Positions 23,400 through 55,793 of a DNA stretch of 64,000 nucleotides are shown piece after piece. The notes under the pieces are model-generated. The model was not told where the DNA came from. It did no database searches and was given only the letters and a program-made list of their open reading frames with translations. Origin of the DNA: Pseudobutyrivibrio sp. OR37 (GTDB taxonomy: Bacteria > Bacillota > Clostridia > Lachnospirales > Lachnospiraceae); contig NZ_FOQF01000014.1 in assembly GCF_900113655.1 (NCBI RefSeq), forward strand, positions 1-64,000, in the 5' to 3' direction. A program made the position numbers and the translations under genes. The stretch's first letter is position 1, and each line of letters opens with the position of its first letter.

Positions 23400-23421
23400 G
23401 CAACTTTTTAATTTTAGATGA

Positions 23422-23558
23422 GGCATACTCACAGTCTTGGCGAGCGCAAGGAGGAGGGCCCCATGGAAAGCAACAGAGGGGACCCACGCCGGCGGGGAGT
23501 TTCTGTTGCTTTCCAATGGGAGGTGGCCTCCGGGAGCATGAAAACCTAGGTGTATGCC
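23422..23558 (+). ncRNA. candidate structured RNA, copy 1 (unassigned family)
   Basis: Proposed fold: P1 GGCATAC (23422-23428) with GTATGCC (23552-23558); P2 GGAGG (23450-23454) with CCTCC (23527-23531); P3, a long hairpin from CCCAT/GGAAAGCAACAG on the left to CTGTTGCTTTCC/AATGGG on the right, ending at 23520. Conserved single-stranded parts are GCGAGCGCAA before P2 and GGGAGCATGAAAACCTA after it. The element at 53066-53197 has the same conserved core, but P1 and P2 are changed on both strands in a pairing-preserving way. It lies between ugd and the rRNA methyltransferase gene; GGAG immediately after P1 is that gene's ribosome site. It could be a cis-regulator or a free RNA. Confidence 0.75.
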
Positions 23559-23574
23559 GGAGTATATTATAATT

Positions 23575-24783
23575 ATGGAAGCAATTGTAACATTAAAAAA
23601 GGGCGAAGGCCGCACTATTAAGGCGGGCGGAGCCTGGATATTCGACAACGAAATAGATACAGTAATGGGCTCCTTCGAAAACGGAGACATTGTCATCGTC
23701 CACGACTTTGATGGCTACATGATGGGCCGCGGCTTCATCAATACCAATTCAAAGATAAGAGTGCGCATGATGACTCGCGATAAGGAACAGCTTATCGACG
23801 ACGATTTCATTGCCATGCGTGTGAAGAACGCCTGGGAATATCGTAAATCCGTTTTGCTAGAGAAGGATTTGAATTGCTGTAGAGTGATTTTTGGCGAGGC
23901 AGATTTCTTGCCTGGTCTTGTAATTGATAAGTATGCTGATGTGCTTGTGGTTGAATCACTGGCACTTGGCATTGATAGATTTAAGGTGCAGATTGTAGAG
24001 CATCTTAAAAAGCTTATGGCTGAGGATGGCTATAACATCCGCGGAGTTTATGAGCGTAGCGATGCAGCTGTTCGTAAGAAGGAAGGCTTGGCACCATACA
24101 AGGGCTTTATCGGTGCAGAATTTGATACCGATGTGGAGATAGTAGAAAACGGTGTTCATTACATGGTAGATGTGGTGAATGGTCAAAAGACAGGTTTCTT
24201 CCTTGATCAGAAGTACAATCGTCTTGCTATTCAGCGTTTGTGCAAGGGTAAAAAGGTACTTGATTGCTTTACCCACATGGGAACCTTCGCGCTTAACGCA
24301 GGTATTGCTGGCGCTGCAGATGTAACAGGTCTTGATATATCAGAATTCGCTGTATCTCAGGCCACAGCAAATGCAAAGCTTAACGGATTAGATTCTACTG
24401 TAAAGTTTAGACAGGCAAACGTCCTTGATGAACTTCCAAAGCTTGCAGAGGCTGGAGAAAAATATGATGTAGTAATCCTTGATCCACCAGCATTCACCAA
24501 ATCCCGAGAGGCTACAAAGAACGCCATGAAGGGTTACCGTGAGATTAACATGAAGGGCTTAAAGCTAGTAAAGGATGGCGGTTATCTTGCCACTTGCTCA
24601 TGCTCACATTTCATGACACAGGATTTATTTATAAAAGTAATCGGCCAGGCTGCCAAGGCTGCTCACAAGCGCCTTCGTCAGGTTGAGTTCCGCACACAGG
24701 CACCAGACCACCCAATACTATGGGCTGCAGATGAAAGCTATTATCTTAAGTTCTTAGTGTTCCAGGTTGTGGATGAGAAATAA
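23575..24783 (+). CDS. class I SAM-dependent rRNA (cytosine-C5) methyltransferase, RlmI-like
   Basis: The 402-residue protein starts at ATG 23575, 12 nt after GGAG. It has a PUA-like N-terminal RNA-binding domain (about 1-75, with GGAWIFDNEI) and an RNase H-like bridge. The Rossmann methyltransferase domain carries DCFTHMGTFALNAG (SAM loop), LDPPAFTKS and the cysteine-containing LATCSCSHFM. RlmI modifies C1962 of E. coli 23S rRNA; the exact target here is inferred by similarity. It is preceded by candidate RNA copy 1, whose P2 strand could mask its ribosome site, so it may be regulated at translation. Confidence 0.88.
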   Translation: MEAIVTLKKGEGRTIKAGGAWIFDNEIDTVMGSFENGDIVIVHDFDGYMMGRGFINTNSKIRVRMMTRDKEQLIDDDFIAMRVKNAWEYRKSVLLEKDLNCCRVIFGEADFLPGLVIDKYADVLVVESLALGIDRFKVQIVEHLKKLMAEDGYNIRGVYERSDAAVRKKEGLAPYKGFIGAEFDTDVEIVENGVHYMVDVVNGQKTGFFLDQKYNRLAIQRLCKGKKVLDCFTHMGTFALNAGIAGAADVTGLDISEFAVSQATANAKLNGLDSTVKFRQANVLDELPKLAEAGEKYDVVILDPPAFTKSREATKNAMKGYREINMKGLKLVKDGGYLATCSCSHFMTQDLFIKVIGQAAKAAHKRLRQVEFRTQAPDHPILWAADESYYLKFLVFQVVDEK

Positions 24784-52802: not shown

Positions 52803-52807
52803 TTTTT

Positions 52808-52857
52808 AAGCCTTCCCCCCTTGGGGGAAGGTGTCAGCGCAGCTGACGGATGAGGGT
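52808..52857 (+). repeat. dispersed double-hairpin repeat, copy 3
   Basis: CCTTCCCCC (52811-52819) folds on GGGGGAAGG (52822-52830); then GTCAGC-GCA-GCTGAC, then GGATGAGGG. The final GAGGG is the ribosome site of the 45-codon gene at 52865, 8 nt away. Same layout as the copies at 19534 and 22038. Confidence 0.85.
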
Positions 52858-52864
52858 AATAATC

Positions 52865-53002
52865 ATGGGAACAGCAATAGTAATTTTAATCCTAATCGCG
52901 ATAGTGGGCGCAATAATCCGCTCCCTAATAAAAGCACATAAACGTGGCGAACATCCAGCCTGCGGCGGCGACTGCGGTCACTGCGGCGGTGGATGTCACT
53001 AG
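52865..53002 (+). CDS. FeoB-associated Cys-rich membrane peptide
   Basis: This 45-residue product has an N-terminal helix (MGTAIVILILIAIVGAII), a basic stretch, and the tail CGGDCGHCGGGCH with four cysteines and two nearby histidines. It matches the FeoB-associated Cys-rich family found next to feoB in Firmicutes, thought to help FeoB assembly or iron handling. Its Shine-Dalgarno comes from the dispersed repeat. It is the last gene of the operon, before a terminator. Confidence 0.92.
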   Translation: MGTAIVILILIAIVGAIIRSLIKAHKRGEHPACGGDCGHCGGGCH

Positions 53003-53044: not shown

Positions 53045-53065
53045 GTATGTTTGATGATTATTTGA

Positions 53066-53197
53066 GCAACACATTAATAATGTCGGCAAGCGCGAGCAAG
53101 AGGACCCCATGGAGTTAAGGAGGGACCCTTTAGGGAGGTTCCCTTGACTCCAATGGGAGATGGCTTGCGGGAGCATGAGAACCTACGACTGTGTTGC
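53066..53197 (+). ncRNA. candidate structured RNA, copy 2 (unassigned family)
   Basis: Same fold as 23422-23558: P1 GCAACAC (53066-53072) with GTGTTGC (53191-53197); P2 GCAAG (53096-53100) with CTTGC (53164-53168); P3 starts CCCAT (53106-53110) and closes ATGGG (53153-53157), with GGGACC/GGTTCCC in its upper part. Shared unpaired blocks are GCGCGA, AGGACCCCATGGA, CCAATGGGAGATGG and GGGAGCATGAGAACCTA. It follows the feo terminator, so it is not the tail of that operon. Its 3' end overlaps the -35 of the next gene's predicted promoter. Confidence 0.75.
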
Positions 53198-53222
53198 GGA
53201 CTCTGGTGCTTTTTGGTATCAT
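53194..53222 (+). promoter_or_regulatory. possible promoter inside the end of RNA copy 2
   Basis: TTGCGG (53194-53199) and TATCAT (53217-53222) are 17 bp apart. The -10 ends 7 bp before the ATG at 53230 and no Shine-Dalgarno is visible, as at 45932-45968. Confidence 0.45.
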
Positions 53223-55727: not shown

Positions 55728-55793
55728 AACATTCGTCTAATGAGCCTGTAGGTAACAGGCGGACTTCGGTAGGATTGGATTATGGGTAAATAT

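Follow-up and report, generated by a model that had tools for sequence, protein, structure and literature searches.

The ERIC and Correia elements are known from bacterial groups other than the one considered here, the genus Pseudobutyrivibrio. Both are described as structured intergenic repeats affecting cleavage of host mRNAs in PMC3049150, where the sections drawn on here portray the BOX elements of Streptococcus pneumoniae as small, modular, interspersed intergenic repeats with an optional central module and a predicted RNA fold. These BOX repeats are reported to have dispersed at some time in the species' past, to be in excess between convergent genes, and to have a leading-strand share of about 61%. 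The bcr1 and other repeats of Bacillus cereus measure 100-400 bp, are confined to one taxonomic group and have mobile features, with 11-130 copies of bcr1 per genome and a TTTAT-associated mechanism (PMC6542083). In GTAG-tagged REP/RAYT systems the repeats are palindromic and form head-to-head dimers, and Y1 transposases are the proposed movers of the REP elements (PMC3733652).

The window analysed here, a 64-kb stretch of Pseudobutyrivibrio DNA, carries two copies of an element which, compared by description, belongs to the same dispersed, intergenic, structured and narrow-range kind, and which is set apart by a covarying locus stem, by nested exchangeable tips and by the strength of its sense bias. 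Specifically, i) like BOX, and again by description, the hairpin family is intergenic, modular and dispersed with a predicted RNA fold, but its stem is locus-specific and covarying; ii) like bcr1, it is confined to one taxonomic group and has many copies per genome, but locus-specific stems and nested tips do not figure in the sections on bcr1, with its TTTAT-associated mechanism, in PMC6542083; iii) like REP/RAYT, it includes head-to-head pairs and has GTAG in the lower stem of a larger family of related hairpins, but the elements are about 100-180 nt long, GTAG is internal, and no Y1 transposase was found in the source genome; and iv) like ERIC and Correia, by description, the elements are structured and intergenic. 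They are best read as genus-specific untranslated elements of the BOX/bcr1 kind, dispersed, modular and structured, whose RNA structure is under selection.

Both elements proposed in the first-pass annotation are present, with the three strings said to be shared in place as written (Table 1). When the two are aligned the core agrees, and P1 and P2 differ on both strands with pairing kept, which bears out the earlier claim that these helices change on both sides and still pair. Folding energy z-scores are -4.8 for copy 1 and -4.0 for copy 2 (0 of 200 dinucleotide shuffles as good). The 3′ boundary of copy 1 perhaps doubles as a ribosome-binding site for the gene whose start is at 23575; GCGGAG is retained at this site in two genomes without the element (G004 and G024). 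A separate REP-like short repeat, CCTTCCCCC..GGGGGAAGG..CAGCGCAGCTGACGGATGAGGG, lies at window positions 52803-52866 and recurs in several genus genomes (BLAST).

Table 1. Parts of the two elements and of a tipless relative, in window coordinates.
Feature	Position	Strand	Basis or remark
Copy 1, whole element	23422-23558	+	sequence
Copy 1, 5′ boundary motif ATGAG	23418-23422	+	sequence; motif also bounds larger hairpin family
Copy 1, P1 5′ arm GGCATAC (locus-specific stem)	23422-23428	+	
Copy 1, conserved left core GCGAGCGCAAG	23440-23450	+	
Copy 1, P2 5′ arm GGAGG	23450-23454	+	
Copy 1, inner hairpin CCCATGG..CCAATGGG, tip ACCCACGCCGGCGGGGAG, reads as type B	23460-23520	+	
Copy 1, P2 3′ arm CCTCC	23527-23531	+	
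Copy 1, conserved right core GGGAGCATGAAAACCTA	23532-23548	+	
Copy 1, P1 3′ arm GTATGCC	23552-23558	+	
Copy 1, 3′ boundary CGGAG	23558-23562	+	sequence
Copy 2, whole element	53066-53197	+	sequence
Copy 2, 5′ boundary motif TGAG	53063-53066	+	
Copy 2, P1 5′ arm GCAACACA	53066-53073	+	
Copy 2, conserved left core GCAAGCGCGAG	53086-53096	+	
Copy 2, P2 5′ arm GCAAG	53096-53100	+	
Copy 2, inner hairpin type A, TTTA tip	53106-53157	+	
Copy 2, P2 3′ arm CTTGC	53164-53168	+	
Copy 2, conserved right core GGGAGCATGAGAACCTA	53169-53185	+	
Copy 2, P1 3′ arm TGTGTTGC	53190-53197	+	
Copy 2, 3′ boundary motif CGGACT	53197-53202	+	
Tipless mini-hairpin TGAGCCTGTAGGTAACAGGCGGACT, larger family	55737-55768	+	R2, 23.4 bits, E 0.0017

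A pattern search of the source genome revealed further copies with different P1 stems. R1, a covariance model built from the core alignment of 16 source-genome copies (A2), matches only copies 1 and 2 within the window, 28 copies in the source genome (the 16 model members included), and 383 copies across 29 genus genomes, with 0 to 50 in each and at least one in 27. Among 397 sampled Lachnospiraceae genomes, searched under stricter filters and with a small number of candidates scored in each, so that weak relatives could escape, 395 had no match and the two that matched both belong to this genus; the exact pattern matched two named contigs, P. ruminis SIG311 and a Pseudobutyrivibrio sp. MAG. 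The family thus has the many dispersed intergenic copies, variable number and narrow taxonomic range of small interspersed structured repeats.

The conserved core sits on a stem that is specific to its locus and is kept paired through compensatory change. We parsed 157 distinct copies (orthologs included), selected for carrying two core motifs and no fewer than 4 of the 5 P2 pairs, with P1 unused; copies with fewer P2 pairs are left out of every count on the 157, and P2 pairing is inflated in this set and in alignment A3 because the collection demanded it. The mean length of the longest P1 helix is 8.7 Watson-Crick pairs, versus 5.0 for arms exchanged among copies; P1 helices of at least 8 Watson-Crick pairs are found in 73% of copies, versus 3.6% of arm swaps; and the P1 register is identical in 107 of the 157. 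In A3, an ungapped core alignment of 32 loci with one copy per ortholog group, 95.3% of cells are paired versus 83.3% in shuffles, the covariation score is 0.338 versus 0.111 (0 of 500 shuffles as high), and double changes occur at all 7 P1 pairs, six of which show all four Watson-Crick types; the innermost P1 pair is unpaired in 16 of the 32 loci, and one pair of the short helix in columns 22-26 is broken in 13. Mean pairwise identity over these loci is 92% in the core and 34% and 30% in the P1 arms. For the 16 copies of A2 the corresponding figures are 95.1% of cells paired versus 85.2% shuffled, double changes at 10 of 23 pairs, and covariation of 0.269 versus 0.125. Eight orthologous copies upstream of purM carry four different P1 stems, each paired, and upstream of dnaE the long stem has been replaced with pairing still largely kept. 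That locus-specific stems stay paired through compensatory change speaks for selection acting on the fold at each locus, and the case made at the outset from two copies has survived the addition of many more, which show strong covariation and a conserved core.

Nor was a described RNA found that corresponds to the element. Rfam 15 gave no match in the 64-kb window at gathering thresholds, in agreement with the earlier failure to match the element to a riboswitch or ribozyme class; at E up to 10 the two elements drew weak matches, mostly to miRNA models, none of them credible. A search of the open-access literature, beyond which most subscription journals lie, found no account of the hairpin family.

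The AUGAG/CGGA ends of both window copies are common to a larger hairpin family with other tips, and the outer boundary AUGAG/CGGACUA is shared with that family by part of the copies. A simple pattern finds both boundary motifs in 20 of 80 R1 ortholog groups, one in 9 and neither in 51, which leaves a minority of R1 copies directly tied to the larger family. A search with the 3′ boundary and a GUAAC motif yielded more hairpins with the same ends and different tips, and 11 of these larger-family hairpins (alignment A4, double changes at 18 of 30 pairs) were used to build a second model, R2. Its copies number 57 in the source genome and at least 1,662 over 28 of the 29 genus genomes, with at most 142 candidates scored per genome (at least 137 copies in G028); under the same stricter filters and limited scoring as for R1, its only matches among the 397 sampled family genomes were in two members of this genus. 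Within the window R2 found one tipless member and, at E up to 1, no match to copies 1 and 2. The pair described earlier is real, but it is part of a many-copy repeat linked to a larger hairpin family unseen before. In Rfam, 11 larger-family loci gave no credible match for the hairpins themselves; at E up to 1 there were an adjoining lysine riboswitch and one weak miRNA match. The riboswitch (105.7 bits; L265, 1651-1837, minus strand) lies upstream of a larger-family hairpin. The tipless mini-hairpin directly follows a 194-aa open frame without a Pfam match. The AUGAG/CGGACUA internal loop is not a canonical k-turn, and that reading was set aside.

Orthologous loci differ both in the presence of the element and in its type, and the apical module is exchangeable: the same place may hold any of several types of inner hairpin, an extra hairpin, or just a minimal tip. 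At the copy-1 locus, among genomes where both flanks were found together, G000 (the source genome), G006, G011 and G014 carry an element, with differing inner modules on related but different P1 stems; G004, G024 and G008 have no element and 24-27 nt between the genes, versus 176 in the source genome; and G007 and G009 have another gene in its place. At the copy-2 locus one base stem bears type A in G000, type A with an extra hairpin in G014, and type C in G011 and G006; G003 has a residual 3′ arm and boundary, and the element is absent from G004 and several more distant genomes. The element is evidently dispensable at such element-free sites, where loss and a history without insertion look alike. 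In G024 the intergene at the copy-2 locus (L131) is enlarged by several TTAAGTGA/TCACTTAA inverted repeats.

Elsewhere, one terminator has, on the same stem, a minimal tip in the source genome and a full type A module in G011, while G006 and G004 have there a larger-family member antisense to the gene (R2, 49.4 bits), and the hairpins of G018 and G017 are plain; another locus has a larger-family type in G006, a full R1 type in G011 and a minimal tip in the source genome. At this second locus the whole hairpin has been replaced between G006 and G011, within flanks of 879 nt (98.9% identical) and 900 nt (98.7%), and a larger-family hairpin occupies the purM upstream site in G005. More than one inner type occurs in 17 of 35 ortholog groups with at least two members, an approximate count, as the typing script scores copy 1 as A where its tip reads B. 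The extra hairpin, with a GGTCC(AGT or GGC)GGACC tip, stands beside P2 in 8 of the 157 copies (L068, L100, L040, L006). P2 halves of unlike kinds are found in 2 of the 157, worse mismatches being barred from the set; both have the extra hairpin, and the halves are unlike as recombinants would have them. The longest nested forms, L075 (+) and L134 (+), have cores of 174 and 176 nt and apparently two additional distal-module hairpins. Near-identical tips on unrelated stems point to exchange or insertion of tips between loci. It is possible, if unlikely, that the unit of spread is a mobile hairpin-tip module of about 75-90 nt, which would colonise the loops of pre-existing hairpins, an intrinsic terminator among them, nest modules within one another and leave the locus stem undisturbed; its hosts would be a genus-wide population of hundreds of hairpins.

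Dispersal of this kind raises the question of whether the family is purely selfish, a MITE-like repeat spread by a transposase or recombinase, with a structure that serves mobility and a sense orientation that is simply less harmful. Such a repeat would account for the 0 to 50 copies per genome and the element-free sites, as well as for the head-to-head pairs, the short GAG-like repeat at inner-module ends, and the possible CTTTTTG direct repeat that brackets copy 2, where the G004 site has a single CTTTTTG; around copy 1 no direct repeat was seen. We nevertheless consider this explanation doubtful, since P1 changes in a compensatory way at fixed loci, which would hardly be expected without selection there, and since the terminal inverted repeats common to loci that mark a MITE were not found (P1 arms 30-34% identical over 32 loci). 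In addition, blastn of copy 2 against plasmids and phages gave no match, and the exact pattern had none in viral contigs. Among transposases we looked at Y1, whose domain, PF01797, has no match in G000 and is also absent from G004, G006 and G011, copy-rich genomes that hold 28, 27, 19 and 50 R1 copies, respectively; mobilisation by Y1/RAYT is therefore rejected as a general cause. The domain occurs in 10 of the 29 genus genomes, including G014 (39 copies) and G021 (29 copies).

The elements show a strong sense bias relative to neighbouring genes, here called as simple open frames of at least 80 codons around the top-scoring copies. With one copy per ortholog group (80 groups), 50 R1 elements lie between two sense genes (+E+) and 10 are antisense to both neighbours (-E-, p 1.6e-7 for 50 versus 10), some of the latter head to head with a sense copy; 12 are +E-, 4 are -E+, and 4 have a neighbour missing. 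An earlier count of 51 copies gave 38, 6, 5 and 2 in the same order. For the larger family the figures are 34, 3, 2 and 0 among 40 copies with orthologs included (one neighbour missing), and 18, 2, 2 and 0 when these are reduced to 23 loci (one unknown; p 4e-4). This dominance of co-directional sense positions (50 versus 10; 18 versus 2) differs from what is described for BOX, although gene orientation is a different measure from a leading-strand share. Head-to-head copy pairs do exist, with one copy antisense to the preceding gene. The sense bias points to action in RNA.

The sense orientation, a position often about 10-40 nt upstream of an open frame, and conserved internal loops would also suit a riboswitch or attenuator-type cis-regulatory RNA that senses a ligand or protein, but the neighbours make this improbable. 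Copy 1 is flanked by a UDP-glucose dehydrogenase gene and a PUA/SAM methyltransferase gene, copy 2 by the feoB region and a glycosyltransferase gene, and other copies lie upstream of purM, dnaE, valS, typA and a hydroxybutyryl-CoA dehydrogenase gene; these are unrelated, and at the two window copies and five other loci no shared pathway of the kind expected around a riboswitch was found. Copies are also found facing an antisense gene or within a terminator hairpin, only one genus is involved, and near copy 1 we saw neither a terminator-like site nor, on either strand, a promoter-like one. Because neighbours vary by copy, genomes hold 0 to 50 copies within a single genus, and element-free sites exist, a riboswitch- or ribozyme-like class is unsupported, and nothing indicates a riboswitch or ribozyme; of the new structured RNA class that the first-pass annotation put forward, the real structured element stands, as a member of a dispersed repeat family instead. 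Copy 2 has a terminator-like hairpin just 5′ and, on its 3′ side, TGGTATCAT, read as an extended -10, and may thus sit outside the leader of the downstream gene. Association with terminators was rejected as a rule, with a T run after P1 in only 3 of 80 groups.

Near-perfect inverted symmetry, and palindromes that could extrude, are compatible with an element that works as DNA, in the form of a cruciform or single-strand hairpin to which a nucleoid or replication protein binds; we hold this to be highly improbable, as the sense bias, the G-U pairs and the conserved asymmetric internal loops all point to RNA. Least probable of all is an independent family of trans-acting small RNA genes, which the compact fold and strong z-score would fit, but for which copy 1 has no promoter-like site on either strand and copy 2 none in sense, and sense genes flank 50 of the 80 groups on both sides.

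We conclude that the elements are probably genus-specific, dispersed, rod-like intergenic hairpins that are transcribed in mRNAs and act in cis, with inner modules that spread between loci, a conclusion drawn from sequence comparison. As parts of the mRNA the hairpins would act on the transcripts that contain them, most likely as intercistronic structures that set mRNA processing or decay boundaries, or that keep the ribosome-binding site of the following gene covered. RNase III-type enzymes could plausibly act on such long interrupted duplexes between cistrons, or the duplexes could serve as stabilisers. The inner modules may move from locus to locus through recombination at short homologies or through some form of transposition.

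If this is correct, a gut and rumen genus carries well over a thousand structured elements outside Rfam, many of them in sense orientation between housekeeping genes. It also offers a natural experiment, in which a single locus in close relatives may lack the hairpin, bear a minimal tip or a full module, or hold another hairpin, so that direct tests would be possible both of how intercistronic structure affects operon expression and of how hairpin modules spread.
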